Shown here piece by piece: positions 5,097-24,728 of a stretch of DNA of 64,000 nucleotides. Source of the stretch: Kushneria indalinina DSM 14324 (GTDB lineage: Bacteria > Pseudomonadota > Gammaproteobacteria > Pseudomonadales > Halomonadaceae). The position numbers and the translations under genes were made by a program. A model generated the notes under the pieces. It was not told the origin of the DNA. It was given only the letters and a program-made list of their open reading frames with translations, and made no database searches. Numbering within the stretch: the first letter of the stretch is position 1; every line of letters begins with the position of its first letter. The stretch covers positions 1 through 64,000 of the forward strand of contig NZ_QRDJ01000007.1 of assembly GCF_003385845.1 (NCBI RefSeq). Direction: 5' to 3'.

Positions 5097-5696
5097 GTTT
5101 GAGTTCCCCTATAAGGTCTCGAGTGCGTTCACGATGCCATACGCATCGGCGTTCGAGGACGGCTGTGCCGCCTGCCGCGGCCCGGGGCCAGCGACACCTG
5201 ATGCTGCAGACTGATAATGGGTTGCAGCGAGGACCTGCTCAATCTCATGTCGGGTCGACATATAGGGGCGTTGATCAGGCAGGAGATTGGCCCGCCTGTT
5301 CAGGTCCTTGGGCAGGCAGGCAGCCGCCGCGCGACTGTCCTCCATGATCCCGGGGATCGCCCGGGGAATTCATGCCTGCGATCAGGAATCTTCAAGACTC
5401 TATCAGTGATGCTCCGGTGTCAACTGATGCATGCGCATTTATAGCGCTCAGACCTTGAAAAGGCGTGACATATTGCACGATATCAGTGCATGGGAGCACA
5501 ACAGTTTCGATTAGTGTCTGCCGTTATTGTGTGTACCAGGGGAAAGACGTTTGGATGAACTATCCTGCGTTAACACCGGTCATCATGACAGGACGCATTG
5601 CGTACCGCAGGCGTCCCGAAACTGCCAGGACAATGCCATTCTCACCTGCCAGTCACGATCGGGCAGAAACGCACTTTATTGTTTCAGGAATTTGCC
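5097..5696. other. 600-base divergent intergenic region between ilvI and trehalase
   Basis: The ilvI side has a possible -35 (TTGACA, minus strand near 5418-5423) followed by a weak TAGAGT, then a 78-codon open frame (5345 to 5109, minus) that stops just before the ilvI ribosome site. It has no Shine-Dalgarno and no run of branched-chain codons, so I do not call it a gene. The trehalase side has a small inverted repeat TGCAC-N7-GTGCA at 5474-5490, a possible operator. No terminator-like attenuator hairpin with a U-tract is evident. Confidence 0.4.
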
Positions 5697-7313
5697 ATGA
5701 CCATGACCGCTGCCGCCTCGGCACCTTCGATGCCGGACACGCCGGAAGTTGCAGAACTTCCGCCATTGCCCGAGCACCTCTGGGGCACGCTGTTTCATGA
5801 TGTGCAGAGCCGCGGTCTGTTCAGTGACAGCAAGACCTTTGTTGACATGATTCCGACCAAGTCGGTCGAAGAGATCATGGCCGACTATGCCCGGCTCTGC
5901 GAGCGCTATTCAAACTGTTCTGCTGCGCCCTGCGTCAGCAACGACGCCCTGCGGATGTTTGTCGAAGAGCGTTTCGAACGTATCGAAACCCAGGCAAACG
6001 TTCAGCCGCCCGAGCGCCAGAGCAACGCGCGTGATCATATTGATGCCCTCTGGAACGTGCTGACACGACAGCCGAGGCCACGCTATAACCCGAACTCCTC
6101 GCGCCTGCCGCTGCCTCATGCCTACGTGGTACCCGGCGGTCGCTTCAACGAGATCTATTACTGGGACAGCTATTTCACCATGCTGGGGCTGCGAGAAAGC
6201 GGCCGCATCGATCTGATGCGAGACATGGTCAATAACGCTGCCTTTCTCATCAATGCCTATGGTCACGTCCCCAACGGCAATCGTACCTACTATCTGTCAC
6301 GCTCCCAGCCGCCCTTTTTCTGCGGCATGGTAGGCCAGCTCGCCCAGCATGACGGCGAAGGCGTCTATGAGCACTATCTGCCCCAGATGGAGCGTGAATA
6401 TACCTACTGGATGGATGGCGCCGAGGCACTGCACCACTGCGAAGCCTACCGTCGCTGCGTCAAGATCTCCGAAGGCGCGCTGCTCAATCGCCACTGGGAC
6501 GACCTGAATACGCCGCGCGAGGAGTCCTTCCGTGAGGACATGGAAACGGCCTGTCACTCGAGTCGCGACCATATCGAGGTATGGCGCAACATCCGCGCCG
6601 GCGCAGAAAGCGGCTGGGATTTCAGCTCGCGCTGGCTGACCGATCCCCACGATCTGTCCACCATCCGTACCGTGGACATATTGCCGCTGGATCTCAATTG
6701 CCTGCTGTATCACATGGAGTCCATTCTGGCCTCGACGCATCGAAGGATCGGGCACTATCAGCGCGCCGACCTTTTCCAGAGTGCGGCCAACTCACGGCTG
6801 GATGCGCTGCGCCGTCTGTTCTGGTCGCAGGAAGAGAAGCGTTTCGGAGACTATCTCTGGCATGAAAATGAACTGACCGACAGCATTAACGCCTCCATCG
6901 TCTTTACCCTCTATTTTGGGGTGGCGACCGAGGAACAGGCCACTCATGTGGCCAATACACTGGAACATCAGCTCCTCCAGCCCGGCGGGCTGATGACGTC
7001 TACCATCGACACCGTTCAGCAGTGGGACGCCCCCAATGGCTGGGCGCCGCTTCAATGGATGGCCATCAAGGGCCTCAAGCGTTACGGCCATGACCGACTG
7101 GCGGACACCATTGCCAGGCGCTGGATGTACAACAACTTCTACCGCTTCGAGAAGGATCACAAGCTGTTGGAAAAGTACAACGTCATGGATCTCGACGGCG
7201 CCCCTGATGGCGGTGAATATCCGGCTCAGGATGGCTTTGGATGGACCAATGGCGTTCTGCGCGCCCTGCTCGCCCTCTATCCGCAGGCCACGCTGGAAAA
7301 CACGGCGCTCTGA
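5697..7313 (+). CDS. treF: Alpha,alpha-trehalase, cytosolic type (GH37)
   Basis: Hydrolyses trehalose to two glucoses. The 538-residue product carries both trehalase signatures, PGGRFNEIYYWDSYF (~residue 145) and QWDAPNGWAPLQ (~441). The inverting catalytic pair is visible as Asp308 in ESGWDFSSRW and Glu507 in GGEYPAQDGFGW. There is no signal peptide, so it should be cytosolic like E. coli TreF (549 residues) and not periplasmic TreA. ATG 5697 has AGGAA seven bases upstream; longer in-frame starts lack a site. In a salt-tolerant host the likely role is recycling of trehalose taken up or stored as an osmolyte. It stands alone, with no trehalose PTS or TreR next to it. Confidence 0.92.
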   Translation: MTMTAAASAPSMPDTPEVAELPPLPEHLWGTLFHDVQSRGLFSDSKTFVDMIPTKSVEEIMADYARLCERYSNCSAAPCVSNDALRMFVEERFERIETQANVQPPERQSNARDHIDALWNVLTRQPRPRYNPNSSRLPLPHAYVVPGGRFNEIYYWDSYFTMLGLRESGRIDLMRDMVNNAAFLINAYGHVPNGNRTYYLSRSQPPFFCGMVGQLAQHDGEGVYEHYLPQMEREYTYWMDGAEALHHCEAYRRCVKISEGALLNRHWDDLNTPREESFREDMETACHSSRDHIEVWRNIRAGAESGWDFSSRWLTDPHDLSTIRTVDILPLDLNCLLYHMESILASTHRRIGHYQRADLFQSAANSRLDALRRLFWSQEEKRFGDYLWHENELTDSINASIVFTLYFGVATEEQATHVANTLEHQLLQPGGLMTSTIDTVQQWDAPNGWAPLQWMAIKGLKRYGHDRLADTIARRWMYNNFYRFEKDHKLLEKYNVMDLDGAPDGGEYPAQDGFGWTNGVLRALLALYPQATLENTAL

Positions 7314-14617: not shown

Positions 14618-15091
14618 TTGCGCTCTCAGCAGGGGATTACTCTACTGGATGCCATGGTGGCGCTGGTCATCATGACGATCATGATTGGCTGGGTCATTCC
14701 GTTCACGCAACGGTGGCATGCCAACCGTCTGCTGGATGCTCAGATGCGTGATGTACAGGGGCTGATGCAGCAGGCACAGATGGCCAGTCTGGACCATGGC
14801 AGGCCCTGGACGCTGTGTGGCAGTCATGATGGACTGCGCTGCGACGGTCAATGGCGGCATCTACTGGTGCTGGACGCCGAGGGACAGGTTCGTTATCACG
14901 CCAAACGACATGACCCCCTGACCCTGCGCTGGAAGGGGCTGTCATCGGCGCTTGTTTTCCACCCACATCTTTCGAGCAGCATGCTCAACGGCACCTTTCA
15001 TATCTGCCACGCTCAAAAAACGCGGCAGTTGATCGTTAACCGCCTGGGACGCATGCGCTTTCAGACCACTGAGACCGAAGGGGATTGTTGA
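14618..15091 (+). CDS. fimT: FimT/GspH-family type IV minor pseudopilin
   Basis: A 157-residue prepilin-like protein. A short basic leader ends in QQG, followed by the hydrophobic N-terminal helix (ITLLDAMVALVIMTIMIGWVIPF) and a small C-terminal globular domain with one pair of cysteines (LCGSHDGLRC). Prepilin peptidase should cleave after the Gly. Mature residue 1 is Ile rather than Phe, and residue 5 is Asp rather than the near-universal Glu. The start is a TTG with AAGGA eight bases upstream. It lies between thiO (divergent) and the GGDEF/EAL gene (convergent). It matches fimT of Pseudomonas by position; whether it acts in pilus priming or DNA uptake is not visible. Confidence 0.78.
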   Translation: MRSQQGITLLDAMVALVIMTIMIGWVIPFTQRWHANRLLDAQMRDVQGLMQQAQMASLDHGRPWTLCGSHDGLRCDGQWRHLLVLDAEGQVRYHAKRHDPLTLRWKGLSSALVFHPHLSSSMLNGTFHICHAQKTRQLIVNRLGRMRFQTTETEGDC

Positions 15092-15100
15092 TTCACGTGG

Positions 15101-18070
15101 TCACTCGAGCCAGAGCCTTTCAAGCGGCATCGGCCGGTGCAGGTAATAGCCCTGCGCGTAATCGATCCCCATTCTGACAAGCCTCTGCGCACTGGCGTCA
15201 TCCTCGATGAACTCGGCCACGGTCAGTGCCCCCAGCCGATGGGCGATCTGATTGATGGCATCCACGATTACCTGATCGAGTGCATTGTCATTGACGTGAC
15301 GGATGAAGCCGCCATCAATCTTGATGATATCGACCACGAAATTGCGCAGATAGCTGAAAGAGCTCAACCCGCTGCCAAAATCATCCAGAGCGACACGACA
15401 CCCGGCCTCGCGCAGGGCATCGATGACGTCGCATGCCAGGGCGAGCTGGTTCATGAGCGCCGTTTCCGTGATTTCAAATATCAACGCCTGCGGCGAGAGA
15501 GGAGACACCGACATGGTTTCTAAAAGCCAGGGCAGAAATCCAGCATCATTGAGAGAGTTGGCCGAGAGATTGATACTCAGCGAACAGCCATCGAGTACCT
15601 GTTTCAATCGCTCGCCGTCATGGACAAGGGCATGCTCGATCACCCAGCGGTCCACGGCAGCCATGATGCCATAGCGCTCGGCCACCGGAATAAAGGCTCC
15701 GGGCGCCACTATCTCGCCTTCCCGGCCCAGCATTCTGACCAGTATTTCCAGATAGTCACGGCCCTCGCCCTGCAGCGGCACAATACGCTGACAAAACAGG
15801 ACAAAGCGATCATTATCGATGGCTTCACGCAGCCCGGCCGCCATGAAGATATCGCGATGGTACTGCTCGATATCCTCCTGTCCCGGATGATAGATGGTCA
15901 CCCGGTTGCGTCCATACTGTCTGGAGGCATAGCAGGCCACATTGACACGACTGATCAGGGTACTGAAGGTTCCGGCATCACTGTCCACCGGAATCAGTCC
16001 GGCACTGACGCTTACCTCATGGATCCGCCCGGCCCATGAAAACCGCAGGGCGCCGATGGCCTCGATCACGGTTTCCACCCATACCGCTGACGTCTCGATA
16101 TCACGGTCATGAAGCAGCAGGGCGAATTCATCGCCGCCCAGACGGGCCAGCACATCTCGACTACCGAGATGCTGCTCGATCAGACGTGCGATCTCGATCA
16201 GCAGGGCATCGCCGGCCAGATGGCCTGCCGAATCATTGATGACCCTGAAATGATCCAGGTTCAGAACCACCAGAATGGCCGGCGTCTCGCCACCGTGACT
16301 GATGGCATTGTCGACCTCCTGCTCGAAGAAATGGCGGTTATACAAGCCGGTTAGCGCATCATGACTGGCCGTAAAGGTCAGACGACGCTGAAGTTCACGC
16401 GACCGGGACAGATCCTGAAAGACCAGAATGGCGCCCATGGTCCTGCCACCCAACGCCCGCACCGGTGCCGCGGTTGCCTTGACCTCACGAGTCTCCTGAT
16501 GCCTGTTGATCAGTACCGAATCGTCACCGCTCATGCAGACGTCATTACGTGACAGGCAGGTCTCGATCAGCTCGAGCGACTGCGGCGTCATGTCCGGACC
16601 ATGCAGAGGAAATACCTCTGCAAGTGCACATGTCCTGGCGCGCGAGAGCGTCCAGCCCGTAATCTCTTCTGCCACGGGGTTCATGAACACCACATGGCCG
16701 CCCATATCCGTGGCGATGACCCCATCACCAATCGAGTTGAGCGTGACCTGTAACCGCTCCTTTTCCTCCTGCAGATCGCGGGCCAGCTGCTCACGTTCGA
16801 ACTCGGCCTGACGGGCGGCATGGATATCGATCAGCGTACCGATCATCTGCAGCGGCCTGCCCCGCTCATCGAACTGCATGACCTTGCCGCGCGATTGATA
16901 CCAGCGATAGCTACCGTCTTTCTGACGTACGCGGTACTCCGCCACATACAGTGGCACCTGACCCGTCACATGCGCTTCAAGCGCTTTTTCCACGTAGGCC
17001 ACATCGTCAGGATGCGTTTGCTCACGCCAGTGCGTCATCGAGCAGACAGCAAGTTCGCTCTCCCCCAGCAATCGGCGCGTTTCCAGAGACGCCCTGATCT
17101 GATGGCGCACCAGATCGATCTCCCAGACCCCCTGACCACTTCCTTCCAGCGCAGACTTCCAGCGCTGCTCGCTTTGTAACAGCTGCGCCTGTTCCCGGCG
17201 AAAGCTCTGTAACGCCATGCCCAGCAGCAGCGCCGGCAATACCGTCAGGGCGATGGAGATATAGTGGAAAAGGCTGAAATGAAGCATTTCCCACTGCTGG
17301 AAAAGATAAATCAGCACCACCAGCGAGATAACGCTGACCACATTGAGCAGGGTGCTCCGAAAGAAATCAAACAGCAGCGCCCCCAGCAACAGGGCCACGA
17401 TACTCCAGACAATTTCATCCGGGAAAAACAGTATGATGACGGCGTTGGCCAGCATCGTCAGGGCCAGCATGGCGTTGAATTTTGTCAGGGCTCCCTGAGA
17501 CAACAGGGTACGCCAGCGACGGATAGAGCTGTTGAGGGCCACGGGCAGCATGACAAGCATTCCCAGCGCGCCGGAGACATAGCGGCCCCACCATAGATGC
17601 AGAGATCCCGAAACCTCCCAGAGCTGCGTCAATGCCAGCAGCAGCGAGCCGATCAGCGGTATCACGAGGACACTGACCAGCAGCACGCTCACAAACGATG
17701 AGACGCTGGCCATCCCCAGGGCGCCGCCATGACGCCAGCGCAGCCAAAGGGCACCGGCCAGGATTTCAATCGTGTTGATGATGGTATATTGAGGAATACC
17801 GTGGGGCGCATGGCAAATGTAGTGCGCCAGCATATCGGCCAGCGCAATACCCAGAAGCGGGATGCCCCAGTCACGCGGTGACAGCCGCACCAGTGCGCCG
17901 ATGGCCATGGGGCCGGCAAGCCATGGCGGCACCACGGCCACATCAACCCGTGACAGCAGCATGGCACCCAGTGCCAGCAGCAGATAGGCCAGCATGAACA
18001 GCAGCAACCGCAGCCAGCGGGCCATGCGTCGATCGCCGCTCCCAAAGATCTGCTCGTAGAGTCCCAGCAT
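15101..18070 (-). CDS. MASE1-PAS-PAS-GGDEF-EAL membrane c-di-GMP enzyme
   Basis: The 989-residue protein has about eight hydrophobic segments in the first ~300 residues (MASE1-like sensor), two PAS modules (~310-430 with PAC motif DGSYRWYQSRGK, and ~440-560), a GGDEF domain with the intact motif LGGDEF at 645-649, and an EAL domain. The I-site Arg is missing (GSRD precedes VLARL), so product inhibition is probably weak. The EAL motif reads EIL (775-777), while later phosphodiesterase elements (INLSAN, FEITET, LDDFGSG, IIKIDG) are kept, so both activities could exist. The layout resembles E. coli DgcE. ATG 18070 has AGGGGA upstream. It is the last gene of the pilVWXY1 operon, 83 bases after pilY1. 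Confidence 0.9.
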   Translation of the reverse strand: MLGLYEQIFGSGDRRMARWLRLLLFMLAYLLLALGAMLLSRVDVAVVPPWLAGPMAIGALVRLSPRDWGIPLLGIALADMLAHYICHAPHGIPQYTIINTIEILAGALWLRWRHGGALGMASVSSFVSVLLVSVLVIPLIGSLLLALTQLWEVSGSLHLWWGRYVSGALGMLVMLPVALNSSIRRWRTLLSQGALTKFNAMLALTMLANAVIILFFPDEIVWSIVALLLGALLFDFFRSTLLNVVSVISLVVLIYLFQQWEMLHFSLFHYISIALTVLPALLLGMALQSFRREQAQLLQSEQRWKSALEGSGQGVWEIDLVRHQIRASLETRRLLGESELAVCSMTHWREQTHPDDVAYVEKALEAHVTGQVPLYVAEYRVRQKDGSYRWYQSRGKVMQFDERGRPLQMIGTLIDIHAARQAEFEREQLARDLQEEKERLQVTLNSIGDGVIATDMGGHVVFMNPVAEEITGWTLSRARTCALAEVFPLHGPDMTPQSLELIETCLSRNDVCMSGDDSVLINRHQETREVKATAAPVRALGGRTMGAILVFQDLSRSRELQRRLTFTASHDALTGLYNRHFFEQEVDNAISHGGETPAILVVLNLDHFRVINDSAGHLAGDALLIEIARLIEQHLGSRDVLARLGGDEFALLLHDRDIETSAVWVETVIEAIGALRFSWAGRIHEVSVSAGLIPVDSDAGTFSTLISRVNVACYASRQYGRNRVTIYHPGQEDIEQYHRDIFMAAGLREAIDNDRFVLFCQRIVPLQGEGRDYLEILVRMLGREGEIVAPGAFIPVAERYGIMAAVDRWVIEHALVHDGERLKQVLDGCSLSINLSANSLNDAGFLPWLLETMSVSPLSPQALIFEITETALMNQLALACDVIDALREAGCRVALDDFGSGLSSFSYLRNFVVDIIKIDGGFIRHVNDNALDQVIVDAINQIAHRLGALTVAEFIEDDASAQRLVRMGIDYAQGYYLHRPMPLERLWLE

Positions 18071-18153
18071 TCGTCCCCTGCACTCAGCCCTTTGGGCCAT
18101 TATTATGTTATTACGCAACGGTCCCTTGCTGTAACGCACAATGCGCGCAGCGA

Positions 18154-21100
18154 TTACTGCTGATACCACCACAACGGCGCGGTCACCAGGCACTCGCGAA
18201 AGGCGCCGTCGACGACGTCATACTGACCGCAGCTATCGTCATCGTTCGCATTGGGTTCTTTTCTGTCATCCTTTAGCACGTCTGCCACCAGGTCTGCCCG
18301 ATTGCTGTCCAGTACACGAGTGCGCAATCCTTCTATCAAAAAGGCAGGTGTTTCCTGCAGATAGCGCCCCATGTCGGCACTCTTGACCGTGGCGGCCCGC
18401 TGCTCGTGCCGGTGGCCATTATCACGCCAGACCGGCAGGGAAAAGCCATACAGACGTGAAGCACCGCGCGCGGCCATGCACATATCCAGGGGCACTTCGG
18501 GGTGATAGGTCGTGAAAAGCGTATTGCCTGCGATGGTGGAAGCATCAGACAACACCTTCATGCCGGCAGGCAACATCAACCGCCATCCACGAAAGGCCTG
18601 CATGTCCAGATAGCCTTCACGATCCACCGGAGCGCCAAGCGTGTAGGTCGACGCCTGCACTGGCGCCTCGACAAGATCGTTATTGTTGAGTATGGCGGGC
18701 GTTTTGCCATTGTGGGACCCATCAAGCCACCGGCTGACCTCAAGAATATAAAAGGCGTCCCGGCTGTCGCTGATCAGCGGATTGGCACGATCGCCGCTGC
18801 CCAGCATCAAAAGATCCACGGGGTTTTGATCCAGATAGGTACGTACCAGATTGGCGCGGTTGAAAAAGGCACGGTCAATACGTTCCTGATCATGACGCCC
18901 CAGCGCTGCCACCTGATGAAGCTGCCAGTCTGCCGGCGTTCTTTTTTTATTCCTGCCGTCATCGCCCAGACGCAGATCGGCAAACCAGACATTGCCGCCG
19001 GTATCCCCGAAAAAGGCGCCATCCACCGTCCCGTCAAAGTCTCGATCCACCGGTGTGATGGTGGCCGGCACGCTGTCAGCGGGTCCCTTGAGTGAGGCAA
19101 TGATGGTTCCTCTTTGGGCATCAATTACCACCATGCCTGTTCCAAAGCGGGCCGGCCCCCGGTTGGCCCCGCTGCCGGCCGTAATGTCATGGCCCATGCC
19201 TGCCAGAAAAGCGGGACGGCCATCGGCCAGCGTGACCGCCACCGGGGTGGACCAGCTCTGTCCCCATTCCGATTCAAGGACGTGCCAGGCCGGTTTCGGC
19301 TCGTCGGGATTGATGACATTCAATCCATAATAGCCACGGCCACCGCGACCGAACCCGAACGCCAGCACCGCATTTTCAAGCGTTACGCGACGCTGACCCG
19401 CGGCATCCAGCGTCGTGTTGTAGGCAAGCCAGGCCCCGGGGGAGCCATCCACCCCGTAATGGGTGGACTGGGAAAGATATTCCAGCCCGCCCTCCTTTTT
19501 GGGCCAGGGGTATTCAGGACGGGTATTGAGCATGCGATACACGGCCATGCCCGCCGTCTCGCGCGGCCAGAAGGCCCATCGCTCCGCACCACTGGTATCA
19601 TCAATGGCGTGAAGCAGCCCCTCGTTGGTGCCCACGAAGATGCGAATGCGCTGATCACCTGTCGGGCAGTCTGATCGCGACTCAGCACAACCATAATTGA
19701 TGGCCAGCGGCTGTGAATGCACGATATCGCCCATTACCCAGGGCCTGATGTCGGTCTCGCTGTCGTTGGTAACATCAAGCCCGTACACCCAGTCCGCCAA
19801 CTGGCGAGGGGTATAGCGGGTCTGCTCGAGCACGCCCAGGGCGCGGCCATCGATGCCGTCAGTGTCAAGATCCTGCCGAGCGCCGGGCCGAGCCAATGAG
19901 GTAAAAACGGCGCCCTTGCCGATATCGGTATAAATCTGCCTGCCGGTACGGACCTGCTCTCGAATCCGGGCCCCCGCGCCTCCCTGCTCGACGGCATCCG
20001 GTGCGGCAATCTCCGTGATCCCCCGACTCCAGAAATCCCGTTTTATCGGGTTGCTGGGCTGGCTTTTATCCACGGCGAACTTTTTCAGATTGCCGGTCCA
20101 GGGCACATAGCCACGAGGCAGAAATCCGGGGGAATACACCTGCCCCAGGTTCTCGGTGCCCTCGATGTTGGTGGCCGTACTGAAACGTTGCGTCTGGATC
20201 TCGTTTTCAATGATGCTGCCCAGGATTCGACTGAAGGCCAGGTCCAGTCCATCGCGATCGTTGGCCTCATAGTAGCCCTGCGAGATCCCTGGCGGGGGCT
20301 GGGCAGCATCTTCGAGAAGACTCTGCTGCGTGGTAAAGCCGATGGTAAAGGTATAGGCGCGCTGGGTGCCGGCCAGGTCAGGACGCTTGTCCCGCCCATC
20401 TCCCAGATCGTGTTCTGCCATGAAGCGTGTCAGCTGCGGCAGGCAGTTTTTGACGGATTCCATGTTATCGGTATTGGGCACGGCCGCGTCATAGAACCTG
20501 CAGGACTTGCCGGTCAGCTTTTCTATAAAGTCGTTGGCCTGGGTATCCATCAGCGGCTGCCCATCCGTCATATAGATGACGTAGACCTGCTCGCAGGGAC
20601 GCATGGGTGACCGATAGGTGCCATTACCTGTTTCGATCCCTGTATCCCGTACCGGCCTGGCCCTGGTATTTTCCTTGCCATACAGCACTTGTGACCCGGT
20701 AAAGTACCGATAGACCTCGCTCATGGTTTCACAAAGCGGCGTCGTGGTATTGGCTGCTATCCTGCTGTTAATGGTCGTCAGCAGAGCGTTACGGGCATCA
20801 CCGCTCTGTCGCGGCTCGAAGGGAAACCCCTGAATGACACGCCCCCCATTTTCACCAAGATTATCGTAGGCATCCTTGCGGCCGACCCAGTTGTTGTCGT
20901 TGAACACTGCGATCGAAAAATTGATGCCCGGATGCTGGCGAACAAGGCTACTCAGCACCTCCCGGGTTATGCCTATGCGGGTCTTGTTGGATCCAGGCAG
21001 GGTGGTATTCATGCTGGCCGAGGTATCAATGATCAGCATGACCTGGGGCTGCCCGCCTCCGCCGCTGGCCTGATAGGCAGGCAGATAGATGTCCACGTCG

Positions 21101-21192
21101 TCGGCTCGAATCACGCTTGAAACCATCAGACACGCCGCCAGAACGGCCAGTGACAGCCGCCGCTGCCAGCGTTTGCACGCGCAGATATCCAT
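18154..21192 (-). CDS. pilY1: Type IV pilus tip adhesin / calcium-binding protein PilY1
   Basis: Large secreted tip protein that primes type IV pili with the minor pilins, aids adhesion and takes part in mechanosensing in Pseudomonas. The 1012-residue chain starts with a signal peptide (RRLSLAVLAACLMVSSVIRA), then a von Willebrand A domain with a MIDAS motif DTSASMN (~residue 56), and ends with the PilY1 beta-propeller. A calcium loop DRDFDGTVD lies at 716-724, followed by GAFFGDTGGNVW. It is somewhat shorter than P. aeruginosa PilY1, which has a longer N-terminal region. The start codon overlaps the pilX stop (TAATG), so the two are coupled. No pilY2 follows. Confidence 0.93.
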   Translation of the reverse strand: MDICACKRWQRRLSLAVLAACLMVSSVIRADDVDIYLPAYQASGGGGQPQVMLIIDTSASMNTTLPGSNKTRIGITREVLSSLVRQHPGINFSIAVFNDNNWVGRKDAYDNLGENGGRVIQGFPFEPRQSGDARNALLTTINSRIAANTTTPLCETMSEVYRYFTGSQVLYGKENTRARPVRDTGIETGNGTYRSPMRPCEQVYVIYMTDGQPLMDTQANDFIEKLTGKSCRFYDAAVPNTDNMESVKNCLPQLTRFMAEHDLGDGRDKRPDLAGTQRAYTFTIGFTTQQSLLEDAAQPPPGISQGYYEANDRDGLDLAFSRILGSIIENEIQTQRFSTATNIEGTENLGQVYSPGFLPRGYVPWTGNLKKFAVDKSQPSNPIKRDFWSRGITEIAAPDAVEQGGAGARIREQVRTGRQIYTDIGKGAVFTSLARPGARQDLDTDGIDGRALGVLEQTRYTPRQLADWVYGLDVTNDSETDIRPWVMGDIVHSQPLAINYGCAESRSDCPTGDQRIRIFVGTNEGLLHAIDDTSGAERWAFWPRETAGMAVYRMLNTRPEYPWPKKEGGLEYLSQSTHYGVDGSPGAWLAYNTTLDAAGQRRVTLENAVLAFGFGRGGRGYYGLNVINPDEPKPAWHVLESEWGQSWSTPVAVTLADGRPAFLAGMGHDITAGSGANRGPARFGTGMVVIDAQRGTIIASLKGPADSVPATITPVDRDFDGTVDGAFFGDTGGNVWFADLRLGDDGRNKKRTPADWQLHQVAALGRHDQERIDRAFFNRANLVRTYLDQNPVDLLMLGSGDRANPLISDSRDAFYILEVSRWLDGSHNGKTPAILNNNDLVEAPVQASTYTLGAPVDREGYLDMQAFRGWRLMLPAGMKVLSDASTIAGNTLFTTYHPEVPLDMCMAARGASRLYGFSLPVWRDNGHRHEQRAATVKSADMGRYLQETPAFLIEGLRTRVLDSNRADLVADVLKDDRKEPNANDDDSCGQYDVVDGAFRECLVTAPLWWYQQ

Positions 21193-21689
21193 TATTCTCC
21201 GCCTCCCGTGCCCAGCGTGACCACACCCTGATAAATCCCCTGCTTCTGATCCCGGGAAGCATCAAAACCTTCAGGCACGATGCGCAGATTGAAATAGCGA
21301 TAATGTTTCAGCGCCTGATTACCGGCGGCGGCAAAGCTGGTGGCATGGCGACGCTCGAGTTGTTCACGTATAGCGTTTGAAAGCCCCGCCTGTTCATCAC
21401 TCAGGCACAGCCGCTGCACACTCAGTTGCGTGCCGGTAGCAGGTGCCACAACGCTTTCGCTGCACGGCTGCGCCAGATAGGCCGGCATGAGTGTGTCGAG
21501 CTGCGCCAGCTGCGTCTCGATCTCCCCATCCTGCTGCTGAAAGCGCTGGACGCCGGTTTCGGCATAGTGGGCAAGCCGGGTATCCAGCAGGCCACGCTGG
21601 GCCAGCGACACGGCCAGCAGTGTCATGGCAGCCAGCAGTACCAATCCGATGACCAGCGTAAAGCCGCCCTGGCGGTGGCTAGAGGCCAT
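21192..21689 (-). CDS. pilX: Type IV pilus minor pilin assembly protein PilX
   Basis: A 165-residue protein with the PilX N-terminal pattern: short leader ending in GG, then FTLVIGLVLLAAMTLLAVSLAQ, lacking the Glu5 of normal pilins as is usual for PilX. The remainder is a soluble domain with Cys residues around 73 and 93. It overlaps pilW by eleven bases and pilY1 by one base. PilX is thought to sit in the priming complex and connect PilY1 to the pilus. Confidence 0.85.
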   Translation of the reverse strand: MASSHRQGGFTLVIGLVLLAAMTLLAVSLAQRGLLDTRLAHYAETGVQRFQQQDGEIETQLAQLDTLMPAYLAQPCSESVVAPATGTQLSVQRLCLSDEQAGLSNAIREQLERRHATSFAAAGNQALKHYRYFNLRIVPEGFDASRDQKQGIYQGVVTLGTGGGE

Positions 21690-22596
21690 AGGCCCCCCCG
21701 AGACGACTGTTGCGCAACGTCGCCGTGGTCACGAACAGGCGTCGCTGATAGTGATCGGCCTCGAAGGCAAGCGTGCGTCCGGCCACCAGAAACTCGCGGG
21801 CCGGCATCGGCAGCGCCATCTTCTCGCTACGCATCACGATGTAGAGCCGTGCTGCCATGACACGGTCCCAGTCCGCTATCTGCCAGTGGGCCACGGCTTC
21901 GCTGTTGTAAAAGCGATTGATGCTGCCATCTCCGGTCTCGTCGCGACCCCACTCCACCTCAAAGGCCTCGACATGGCGCACGATTTCGCTGCTGGAATAG
22001 CTCCCCGAGGCACTGCGCTGATTGACATAAAGCGCCGGCACACTTTCTCCGCTGTACTCGTCATCGACCATACGCAGGTAATAGATTCCGTCGCGGTAGC
22101 GCCAGTTGCCCTGACATGACTCGCCAAGAGTGAGCGCTCGATCCTGATCGAGTGTCAGGCAGGTGCCGTTGCCGTGGTCGACGTAACGCACGGCCACCAC
22201 GGCAGCCGGCCGTGAAGCAGGAGCATCGGATTTCAAGGCACTTTTTGGCACAAGACCAAGCGTTTTGGCATGCTCTGCCGTGCCGCCCCAGACAGGCAGG
22301 GCACACTCGATCCTGATGGCTTTGCTCATGTCGCTGCAGCTATCGCTACGGGCCGGCGGCATGATTTCCCCCCAGAAACCGGTGCGACGCAGCTCCTCGC
22401 CCAGCAGCTGCGTGGCCATTCTCCCCCGGACCTGAAGGTCGGCCATGGCGTGCTGCTGATGAAAGGTACGCGCGGTCTGCGTGTAGAGCACAATCACGGC
22501 AGAGAGCACCATTAGCCCCAGCGCCATGGCGATCATCATTTCCAGCAGGGTGACGCCTCGCTGGGCTTGCTCGGAGGAGGATATGAAAGTCATCAA
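21679..22596 (-). CDS. pilW: Type IV pilus minor pilin PilW
   Basis: The 305-residue product has a class III signal: leader ending in QRG, then VTLLEMMIAMALGLMVLSAVIVLYTQ with Glu at mature position 5. A central PilW domain follows, with ALPVWGG and a Cys pair (LTLDQDRALTLGESCQGNWRYR). The start ATG overlaps the pilV stop by four bases (ATGA) and the end overlaps pilX by eleven bases. It belongs to the PilVWX-PilY1 priming complex. Confidence 0.9.
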   Translation of the reverse strand: MMTFISSSEQAQRGVTLLEMMIAMALGLMVLSAVIVLYTQTARTFHQQHAMADLQVRGRMATQLLGEELRRTGFWGEIMPPARSDSCSDMSKAIRIECALPVWGGTAEHAKTLGLVPKSALKSDAPASRPAAVVAVRYVDHGNGTCLTLDQDRALTLGESCQGNWRYRDGIYYLRMVDDEYSGESVPALYVNQRSASGSYSSSEIVRHVEAFEVEWGRDETGDGSINRFYNSEAVAHWQIADWDRVMAARLYIVMRSEKMALPMPAREFLVAGRTLAFEADHYQRRLFVTTATLRNSRLGGAYGL

Positions 22597-23171
22597 CCGC
22601 GAACCGGGTGATAGCGACTGCTGGCACGGACGCTCTGACGAGCGCTGGTAATGTCATCACTGGCACAGGGAGTGTTTTCCGAGCTGCCACCCTGTCCAGT
22701 ACCTCGCCAGGCCAGGGTAACGGTGACATCAAAACGCTGCGCCCGGGGCATGACCGTGATACAGGCATGGGCCTGTGGCAGGCCGTCAAGGCGGTGATGC
22801 TCGCCCTGCGCCTGCATGATCTGTTGTTCCCAGTCGGCGAGATCAAAGCGGGCCAGTGCCTGACTGTCGCAAAGCGCCTGCCGGCAATCACCACCACGTT
22901 GCTGCTGTTGCCCCCCGATGGGGGCATGAGCGCTTTCCCCCACGTTGTAGACGGACATCGCCTCGCGGGTAGTATTGGCGCGTAGCCGTTCCAGCATATC
23001 GTTGACCAGCAGTGTAGCGCGGCCGCGTTGCAGGGCCTGTTCGTTAGCCTGCTGGGCGTGCAGCACCAGACCCATGACGCCCATGGCGCCAAGGCTCAAC
23101 ACCACCATGGCGACCAGTACTTCCAGCAGGGTAAAGCCCCGCTGGGCGGGAATACGCGTATGAATCATCAT
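22593..23171 (-). CDS. pilV: Type IV pilus minor pilin / modification protein PilV
   Basis: The 192-residue prepilin has leader RIPAQRG and mature start FTLLEVLVAMVVLSLGAMGVMGLVLHAQQ, a perfect class III pilin N-terminus with Glu5. The C-terminal part is Cys- and Gln-rich and variable. It is the first gene of the operon; pilW, pilX and pilY1 follow with overlaps. In Pseudomonas fimU precedes it and pilY2-pilE end the operon; none of those is seen here. Confidence 0.9.
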   Translation of the reverse strand: MMIHTRIPAQRGFTLLEVLVAMVVLSLGAMGVMGLVLHAQQANEQALQRGRATLLVNDMLERLRANTTREAMSVYNVGESAHAPIGGQQQQRGGDCRQALCDSQALARFDLADWEQQIMQAQGEHHRLDGLPQAHACITVMPRAQRFDVTVTLAWRGTGQGGSSENTPCASDDITSARQSVRASSRYHPVRG

Positions 23172-23281: not shown

Positions 23282-23755
23282 TCAGGAGCGTCGACGCTCG
23301 GCCAGTTCACGCTTCAGACGATTGATGGGTCTGGTGACCAGAAAGCCAAAGGAGACGGCGCCCTCCTTCGTTTCCACCGCGTGGTGCATGCGATGCGCCT
23401 GAATGCGCTTTTTCCAGAAGCGCTGCTGGCGGTTGAACGGTACCGGAAAGCGCCGATGTACCAGCCCATCATGAAACATGAAATAGACCAGACCGTAGGC
23501 GGCAATACCCAGCCCCACCGCCAGTTCAAGAGGATGGCCGTTGAGTCCTCTATAGATCAACACAACGGAGGGCAGCGCAAAGAAGACAGCGAACAGATCG
23601 TTAAGCTCGAAAAGCCCATGCCGCTCACTGTGGTGTGAGCGATGCCAGCACCACAGGAAGCCGTGCATGATATAACGATGCGTAAACCAGGCCATGAACT
23701 CCATGCCGGCAAACGCCAGCAAAAACAGCATCCCCCAGAGCAGCAGATCTCCCAT
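23282..23755 (-). CDS. crtZ: Beta-carotene hydroxylase-like fatty acid hydroxylase family protein
   Basis: The 157-residue membrane protein has the four histidine boxes of non-heme di-iron hydroxylases in CrtZ spacing: HRYIMHG (~26), HRSHH (~39), HDGLVH (~94) and HRMHH (~116). CrtZ adds hydroxyl groups to the beta-ionone rings of beta-carotene to give zeaxanthin. Length and motif spacing match CrtZ better than sterol desaturases. No crtE, crtB, crtI or crtY is in the window, so the substrate is uncertain. It lies between pilV and ispH, where Pseudomonas has the end of the pil operon. Confidence 0.75.
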   Translation of the reverse strand: MGDLLLWGMLFLLAFAGMEFMAWFTHRYIMHGFLWCWHRSHHSERHGLFELNDLFAVFFALPSVVLIYRGLNGHPLELAVGLGIAAYGLVYFMFHDGLVHRRFPVPFNRQQRFWKKRIQAHRMHHAVETKEGAVSFGFLVTRPINRLKRELAERRRS

Positions 23756-23774: not shown

Positions 23775-24728
23775 CTAGGCGCTGACGATCACCTTCTCGC
23801 GCAGCTCCTTCGGCATGGAGAAGGTAATGGTCTCCTCACGTCCTTCAAGCTCTTCCGGCTCGTGTCCCCCCAGCGCCTTGAGACGATCAATCACGCCCTT
23901 GACCAACACCTCGGGGGCACTGGCGCCGGCGGTCACGCCGACAATCCCGCAGCCTTCAAACCACTCGCCCTGCATCGACTGAGCGTCATCAATCAGCCAT
24001 GCCGGCGTACCCATCCGCTCGGCAAGTTCTGCCAGGCGATTGGAGTTCGAGCTGTTGGCGCTTCCGACCACCAGCAGCACATCGCACTGCTCGGCCAGTT
24101 CACGCACGGCGTCCTGACGATTTTGCGTGGCGTAGCAGATGTCATCCTTGCGCGGCCCCTGAATGGCCGGAAAGGTCTCGCGCAGAGCATCGATGACCCT
24201 TGAAGTGTCATCCATCGACAGCGTGGTCTGGGTCACAAAGGAGAGGTTTTCGGGATCCCGGACCTTCAGCGCCCGCGCATCCGCCTCGTCTTCGACGAGA
24301 TAAATGGCGCCGCCGTAACTGTCGTCATAGCGTCCCATGGTCCCTTCGACTTCCGGGTGCCCGGCATGGCCGATCAGAATGCACTCACGCCCGCGCCTGG
24401 CATAGCGCAGCACTTCCATATGGACCTTGGTCACCAGCGGACAGGTCGCATCGAAGATGCGCAGCCCGCGGCGCTCGGCTTCCTGCTGCACGGCGCGCGA
24501 GACGCCATGCGCCGAGAAGATGACGATGTTGTCGTCAGGAATCTCGTCGAGTTCTTCGACGAAGATGGCACCGCGCTCGCGCAATGTTTCCACCACGTAG
24601 CGGTTGTGAACCACTTCATGGCGAACATAGATTGGCGCACCGAAGACATCGAGTGCCCGGTTGACGATATCAATGGCGCGATCAACGCCTGCACAAAAAC
24701 CACGTGGATTGGCCAGCCTGATCTGCAT
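23775..24728 (-). CDS. ispH: 4-hydroxy-3-methylbut-2-enyl diphosphate reductase
   Basis: Last enzyme of the MEP pathway; a 4Fe-4S (3Fe-4S-bound) enzyme that reduces HMBPP to IPP and DMAPP. The 317 residues have the three cluster cysteines in [11 protein letters not shown] (~12), [11 protein letters not shown] (~95) and [10 protein letters not shown] (~197), plus the SNSNRL substrate loop. It closes the ribF-ileS-lspA-fkpB-ispH cluster, the order known from E. coli and Pseudomonas, 96 bases after fkpB. Confidence 0.96.

Follow-up and report, generated by a model that had tools for sequence, protein, structure and literature searches.

A gene for a predicted membrane c-di-GMP phosphodiesterase behind pilY1 in the minor-pilin locus of Kushneria

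INTRODUCTION

A 64,000-nucleotide stretch of the Kushneria indalinina DSM 14324 genome (contig NZ_QRDJ01000007.1, positions 1 to 64,000; hereafter the window) carries a minor-pilin locus, pilV-pilW-pilX-pilY1, followed on the same strand by a gene for a membrane enzyme of cyclic di-GMP (c-di-GMP) metabolism with the domain order MASE1-PAS-PAS-GGDEF-EAL. The route from PilY1 to c-di-GMP has been argued mainly from one genus, Pseudomonas, in which the gene for the cyclase SadC is unlinked to pilY1. SadC has been described as an inner-membrane diguanylate cyclase (PMC9210963), and a cascade leads from PilO to SadC (PMC8806160). Kushneria shares PilY1, PilO (present in 10/10 genomes of the genus) and a membrane c-di-GMP enzyme with the P. 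aeruginosa PilY1–PilO–SadC system, but differs in that its enzyme gene is linked to pilY1 and its enzyme is predicted to hydrolyse c-di-GMP. Among the literature matches listed, no title or abstract opening described a c-di-GMP enzyme gene next to pilY1.

Other described enzymes resemble the Kushneria protein itself. RbdA (PA0861), the biofilm-dispersal phosphodiesterase of P. aeruginosa, is likewise a membrane protein with a PAS-GGDEF-EAL core and the same EAL active-site residues, and its phosphodiesterase activity prevails over that of the linked cyclase domain, which holds it in check (PMC11372557). The same source gives RbdA two transmembrane segments and a periplasmic domain, whereas the Kushneria enzyme has MASE1 and an extra PAS domain; RbdA also keeps a GGDEF aspartate that is asparagine in the window enzyme, and falls in a separate tree grouping. 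DgcE (YegE), the master diguanylate cyclase of Escherichia coli, has the MASE1, PAS, GGDEF, EAL order and is the sister of the Kushneria enzyme in our tree (support 0.992), but it is a cyclase with a degenerate EAL domain (PMC6510439), whereas the Kushneria enzyme has an intact EAL and a decayed GGDEF domain, and its gene adjoins alkA and udk, not pilus genes. According to that article a GTPase partner targets DgcE at its MASE1 domain, which would offer one model for a possible gating of the Kushneria enzyme through MASE1 by PilY1, PilO or another partner. In PdeA and PdeF of E. coli, the order of MASE1, degenerate GGDEF and EAL, shared with the Kushneria enzyme, is an established phosphodiesterase layout (PMC6510439); compared by description rather than by sequence, they differ in being described there without PAS domains.

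RESULTS

A c-di-GMP enzyme gene directly behind pilY1

The open reading frames (ORFs) of pilV, pilW, pilX and pilY1 overlap end to start by 4, 11 and 1 bases on the minus strand, and the enzyme gene begins 83 bases after pilY1 on that strand, in agreement with the preliminary description of the window. The enzyme ORF as listed opens at a GTG at 18193, but the ATG at 18070 is the start that aligns with relatives and gives the 83-base gap; starts at 18100 or 18193 were rejected, since indels in the spacer put an extension of this kind into different frames in different relatives. Pfam matches across the minor-pilin operon and the enzyme were N_methyl, PilW, PilX_N, T4P_PilY1, PAS_3, PAS, GGDEF and EAL. 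The features, all on the minus strand, are as follows.

22593..23171, minus: pilV, minor pilin (ORF list; TIGR02523 PilV, 70.3 bits, cut-off 52.2)
21679..22596, minus: pilW, minor pilin (ORF list; PF16074 PilW, 69.2 bits)
21192..21689, minus: pilX, minor pilin (ORF list; PF14341 PilX_N, 28.3 bits)
18154..21192, minus: pilY1, pilus tip adhesin (ORF list; PF05567 T4P_PilY1, 37.5 bits, cut-off 28.1)
18071..18153, minus: spacer of 83 bases from the pilY1 stop to the enzyme start
18071..18113, minus: conserved spacer half nearest the enzyme, AT-rich and then ribosome-binding-site-like; candidate promoter or leader of its own
15101..18070, minus: MASE1-PAS-PAS-GGDEF-EAL gene, 989 aa, predicted membrane c-di-GMP phosphodiesterase
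17309..18007, minus: MASE1 membrane domain (19.7 bits, sub-threshold, plus homology)
16835..17083, minus: PAS 1 (PAS_3, Pfam 71.3 bits)
16412..16759, minus: PAS 2 (Pfam 53.1 bits)
15902..16369, minus: GGDEF domain, motif present, first metal Asp replaced by Asn604 (Pfam 118.8 bits)
16259..16261, minus: Asn604 codon (Asp in RbdA, E. coli DgcE, G124, G126 and G128–G130)
15131..15832, minus: EAL domain (Pfam 210.8 bits)

PF05567 matched 72 of 275 Halomonadaceae genomes, and the PilY1 of Kushneria genome G124, missed by this model, was found with phmmer. Neighbourhoods were read at 73 places, the window and 72 loci (L006–L077); L001–L004 come from the same genomes as L012, L014, L007 and L010 and were counted once, and L005 (Comamonadaceae) lies outside the family counts. 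A GGDEF/EAL gene stands behind pilY1 in 12/73 of these neighbourhoods (the window, G120–G127 and G128–G130), two of the copies being broken, which amounts to 9 of 10 Kushneria genomes and all three genomes of a sister genus. None of the other 61 has a GGDEF/EAL gene adjoining pilY1; in three of them (L038, L041 and L073) an EAL gene lies several kilobases away. The neighbourhood, for which the preliminary description had proposed a survey of Halomonadaceae, is therefore conserved beyond chance and confined to two sister genera, so that the lack of conservation which would have refuted the proposal was not observed; the conservation of this linkage is new information.

The position behind pilY1 is elsewhere often that of a pilin gene. 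At the 60 loci outside the two genera, a loose pattern found a prepilin-like ORF in this slot at 38, none at 21 and left one unanchored, while a stricter pattern found 22; in one genus (g23) the slot held such an ORF in 0/17 anchored loci. A PilE query taken from G162 matched pilE at the slot in G162, G155, G173 and G175. Across all 13 Kushneria and sister-genus genomes the query had no match at the slot and met only pilins elsewhere, over at most residues 3–100 of its 141. The enzyme gene thus occupies the place of pilE, and pilE seems to have been lost in both genera, though a diverged copy may lie elsewhere.

A tree of ispH, bamD and rluD grouped the sister genus (G128–G130) with Kushneria (support 1.00); the Kushneria genome lacking the enzyme gene, G119, had too few of these markers to be included. 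The tree of linked genes (ispH, fatty-acid hydroxylase, pilV, pilW and pilY1) also placed the two genera together against three outgroups (0.95) and nested G119 inside Kushneria (1.00). In G119 (L006:8103-11747) pilY1 lies directly against the convergent pilin gene, beyond which the thiO-bamD-rluD genes usual at this flank have no match. That the G119 lineage had always been without the enzyme gene was also considered, but since it is nested in the genus and its flank beyond the pilin gene differs, loss is likelier. In a tree of the GGDEF-EAL core, the Kushneria clade joins E. coli DgcE and not RbdA, which groups with other Halomonadaceae proteins rather than as an orthologue of the Kushneria enzyme. 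This tree left out the proteins own_C2_64, L115 and L166 and the G122 and G127 fragments except the C-terminal piece of G122, and own_C1_202 gave no ORF row in the residue and tree comparison. One entry before the split of Kushneria and the sister genus, followed by a change of the N-terminus in one genus and by repeated decay, is the simplest account.

Complete EAL domain and decayed GGDEF domain

Among solved structures RbdA is the closest relative of the window enzyme, with 400 bits over PAS-GGDEF-EAL (next 208) and 187–189 bits for the EAL domain alone (next 129). The EAL residues discussed for metal and substrate in the RbdA article are E585, R589, N646, E678, D708, D709, E765, F766 and E768 (PMC11372557). 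In our alignment their counterparts in the window protein, E775, R779, N834, E866, D896, D897, E953, F954 and E956, are identical at 9/9 positions, and these residues are kept across the ten tabulated orthologues with the exception of F766, which is Tyr in G128–G130. The window protein also retains K917 and Q973, which we take to be functional residues of the EAL domain.

The GGDEF domain has fared differently. Its first aspartate, which has a metal role in PleD, is replaced by Asn in 7/7 main-clade Kushneria genomes (Asn604 in the window) and is retained in RbdA, E. coli DgcE, G124, G126 and G128–G130; eight tabulated paralogues of the same genome have Asp in seven cases and Ser in one. The GGDEF motif is intact in the window and reads GSDEF in G120, G123 and the sister-genus genome G128. 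Both marks of an active cyclase, the first Asp and the GG(D/E)EF motif, are present together in G124, G126, G129 and G130, while the window protein has Asn604. With phmmer it matched E. coli DgcE over the whole protein (351 bits), and its best NCBIfam model was the DgcE-like PRK09776, a diguanylate cyclase model; the score of 787 bits is below the cut-off of 1135, and the pattern of decay is the reverse of that in DgcE.

Identity to the window protein is higher in the EAL than in the GGDEF domain in all nine unbroken orthologues (63–64% against 44–47% in G124 and G126, and 48–50% against 32–36% in the sister genus), whereas in E. coli DgcE it is reversed (GGDEF 46%, EAL 27%). The ratio of non-synonymous to synonymous substitution rates (dN/dS) was 0.11–0.16 for the whole enzyme gene in five pairs and 0.14–0.15 for pilY1, and judged by these ratios the enzyme gene is under purifying selection similar to that on pilY1. 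By domain, three main-clade pairs gave 0.06–0.11 for EAL and 0.09–0.21 for GGDEF, and MASE1 was the highest of the five domains in 3/4 pairs (0.15–0.26 over all four); the pairs share branches and have dS of 0.6–1.4, so that these domain values are indications, not tests.

Taken together, the window protein is most likely a phosphodiesterase in which constraint on the cyclase half was lost in the main clade, and an active cyclase was rejected for it, the Asp being lost and the EAL domain complete and better conserved. We infer catalytic activity of the EAL domain, and the predicted effect is lower c-di-GMP, because EAL and not GGDEF looks catalytically complete and is best conserved. The analogy with SadC drawn in the preliminary description, which implies that the enzyme raises c-di-GMP, is not supported, the predicted sign being the opposite.

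An N-terminus with MASE1 in Kushneria and a shorter one in the sister genus

The MASE1 match of the window protein scores 19.7 bits, below the Pfam cut-off of 29.8. The two deep-branching orthologues scanned, G124 and G126, score 49.4 and 44.9 bits, and because these exceed the cut-off the MASE1 assignment of the window protein stands by homology, and the view that its low-scoring match is spurious was dropped. MASE1 proteins have a multi-spanning N-terminus of about 300 aa, for which eight to ten membrane segments are described (PMC6510439); a simple scan found fewer, six hydrophobic segments, in the MASE1 region of the window protein and eight in the N-terminus of E. coli DgcE. The N-terminus of the window protein aligns along that of DgcE at 23% identity, with 6 bits when the N-termini are compared alone. 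The sister-genus enzymes are shorter (734–761 aa), and the two scanned, from G128 and G130, have no MASE1 match and one N-terminal hydrophobic segment each.

The spacer between pilY1 and the enzyme gene

A consensus scan for sigma-70 promoters and terminators found no minus-strand site inside the 83-base gap, and inspection of the spacer by eye showed no convincing promoter of either the sigma-70 or the sigma-54 type. The terminator scan did mark a weak five-pair stem with a T-run within the end of pilY1 (18358–18344, minus strand); as background, the scan found 4 promoters against 5.0 in shuffled sequences and 12 terminators against 7.0. The spacer was aligned in seven genomes and reduced to five for counting (the window, L007, L008, L010 and L012). 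Invariant columns numbered 23/45 next to the enzyme and 0/40 next to pilY1, and the enzyme-proximal part is also more conserved than the four-fold sites of pilY1 in the same five genomes (82/316 invariant; Fisher p = 0.0013). The conserved block includes a stretch resembling a ribosome-binding site and an AT-rich run, and may be a promoter, a leader or merely a strong start region. Co-transcription of pilY1 and the enzyme gene is therefore at most a possibility: the gap is free of a recognised terminator or promoter, yet a conserved element precedes the enzyme gene.

c-di-GMP genes in the pilus locus beyond the family

PilY1 was found in 276/391 genomes at order level and 233/370 at class level, and 100 regions, 60 and 40 respectively, were picked among the top-scoring of the listed PF05567 matches, in most cases a single region for each genus or family; weak PilY1 proteins such as that of the window are under-sampled among them, and nine regions are shorter than 9 kb because contigs end. 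In four of the 60 order-level regions (L114, L115, L166 and L157) a GGDEF/EAL gene lies directly behind pilE on the same strand. The first three belong to one family, of which they are the only regions read, and there pilY1, a pilY2-like gene, pilE and an EAL gene stand in this order on one strand (L115:5699-7411, minus; L166:5539-7194, plus; L114:2-907, minus). The L115 product is homologous to FimX (4j40, 244 bits), and the EAL residues are degenerate in L115 and L166. In L157, from another family, a gene for a 7TMR-DISM-GGDEF membrane protein (5211-7013, plus) lies about 180 bases behind pilE, and in L128 a GGDEF/EAL gene lies behind an opposite-strand gene. None of the 40 class-level regions had a GGDEF/EAL gene, in a scan that on repetition recovered both spiked controls.

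The Kushneria genome has 22 GGDEF/EAL matches, the enzyme gene included, and a rough chance expectation for a c-di-GMP gene at one neighbour position is about 0.4 in 60 (3400 genes assumed). With four order-level cases against this expectation, c-di-GMP genes do come into this operon from time to time, the Kushneria case being by its residues of the intact phosphodiesterase type. A general rule of c-di-GMP genes beside pilY1 was discarded in view of the 4/60 and 0/40 counts.

Neighbouring genes and other loci

The window PilY1 is 74–86% identical to PilY1 of four further Kushneria loci. A DTSASM stretch near its N-terminus presumably resembles the metal site of a vWA domain, and the Pfam scan of this protein gave no vWA match. 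The genes flanking the operon are as follows.

14618..15091, plus: minor pilin gene of the GspH/FimT type, convergent with the enzyme gene and separated from its end by 9 bases (PF12019, 37.2 bits)
23282..23755, minus: fatty-acid-hydroxylase-like gene, upstream of pilV
23775..24728, minus: ispH, syntenic marker upstream of the minor-pilin locus

The convergent pilin gene is a conserved neighbour of the enzyme gene in relatives. In Kushneria as in the sister genus, the hydroxylase-like gene has ispH on one side and pilV on the other; it was matched in 0/60 other family loci. Elsewhere in the genome, a second set of genes that by eye is fimT-pilV-pilW-like, without pilY1, lies at G000:C2:436945-437965 (L230, L233); it may not belong to type II secretion, because PF00437 finds only three motor ATPases (T2SSE type) in this genome. 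Just past the end of the window starts a gene for a 979-residue PAS-GGDEF protein (G000:C2:64114-67053, L228).

DISCUSSION

On balance, the enzyme is probably a DgcE/RbdA-group phosphodiesterase for c-di-GMP that lies in the membrane, has MASE1 as its sensor and was recruited to the minor-pilin locus. Before Kushneria and the sister genus parted, its gene would have entered the locus and replaced pilE. The EAL domain would hydrolyse c-di-GMP, the GGDEF domain, which in most Kushneria would have lost its competence as a cyclase, would regulate it as the cyclase domain does in RbdA, and input would be received by the MASE1 and PAS domains. Co-expression with the pilus tip proteins would then reduce c-di-GMP at the place and time of tip-complex formation, and the lower level would oppose attachment, or favour pilus motility and detachment. 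Since this gene order is genuine and conserved, and belongs to a single lineage, it is fair to infer that the pilus tip locus and a membrane c-di-GMP enzyme are functionally linked. Of the self-contained surface-sensing module that the preliminary description proposed, the genomic linkage is upheld by its conservation in 12/73 neighbourhoods, and the implied direction, raising c-di-GMP, is not.

Several observations weigh against recruitment of a phosphodiesterase that serves the pilus. A frameshift disrupts the enzyme gene in G122 (L009) and a stop codon does so in G127 (L014), pilVWXY1 staying open in both, and G119 keeps pilVWXY1 without the enzyme gene; with 2/9 copies in the genus broken and the gene lost from 1/10 genomes, the pilus locus does not require the enzyme gene. 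The conserved element before the enzyme gene could mean separate expression. In G124 and G126 the GGDEF domain retains both the Asp and the motif, and between these two it is more constrained than EAL (dN/dS 0.064 against 0.108), for which reasons the enzyme of these deep-branching genomes may be bifunctional. Finally, the gene tree joins the sister-genus proteins to those of Kushneria with a support of only 0.393, so that a single ancestry of the enzyme rests more on synteny than on the gene tree.

Some of these points feed the rival that survives best, in which the phosphodiesterase gene, served by a promoter and a stimulus of its own, merely came to lie between pilY1 and the convergent pilin gene and is functionally unconnected with the pilus. 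It would explain the conserved element directly before the enzyme gene and the persistence of pilVWXY1 in the 3/10 genus genomes where the enzyme is lost or broken, and tight convergent packing can preserve gene order without function; but the genes share a strand across a small gap in which the scan found no terminator, and the order is kept in two genera despite a changed N-terminus, spacer and MASE1. We regard it as a tentative alternative with perhaps a quarter of the weight. Nor do we put much trust in the boldest extension of recruitment, a pilus-tip operon with a built-in c-di-GMP sink, in which a pilin gene was exchanged for a phosphodiesterase gated by PilY1 or the alignment complex, and tip assembly or surface contact lowers c-di-GMP, with a sign opposite to PilY1–SadC; it is doubtful.

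A regulator resembling FimX, which would act on the pilus motor through c-di-GMP binding by its EAL domain and only secondarily through catalysis, is unlikely. The FimX homologue after pilY1, pilY2 and pilE in L115 and the EAL genes at the same place in L166 and L114 speak for it, as they show c-di-GMP genes entering the operon elsewhere, and FimX encoded with pilus tip genes would make a neat functional link; yet the catalytic EAL residues lost in L115 and L166 are kept in the Kushneria enzyme, which has a MASE1 membrane anchor and not a FimX-like N-terminus. Least probable of all is a SadC-like membrane cyclase, activated by PilY1, the two forming a module complete in itself by which contact with a surface would raise c-di-GMP: the GGDEF motif of the window protein, its sub-threshold match to the cyclase model PRK09776, the grouping with E. 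coli DgcE and the Asp kept in G124 and G126 would suit it, but the first GGDEF Asp is lost in 7/7 main-clade genomes, the motif is GSDEF in G120, G123 and G128, and the EAL domain is complete and best conserved, whereas that of DgcE is degenerate (PMC6510439).

The recruited phosphodiesterase that we favour would be a DgcE-type protein whose cyclase half is decaying, the converse of E. coli DgcE, in which the phosphodiesterase half has decayed. Linked to pilY1 and predicted to degrade c-di-GMP, it makes the PilY1 link directly testable in Kushneria, where contact sensing may carry the opposite sign.

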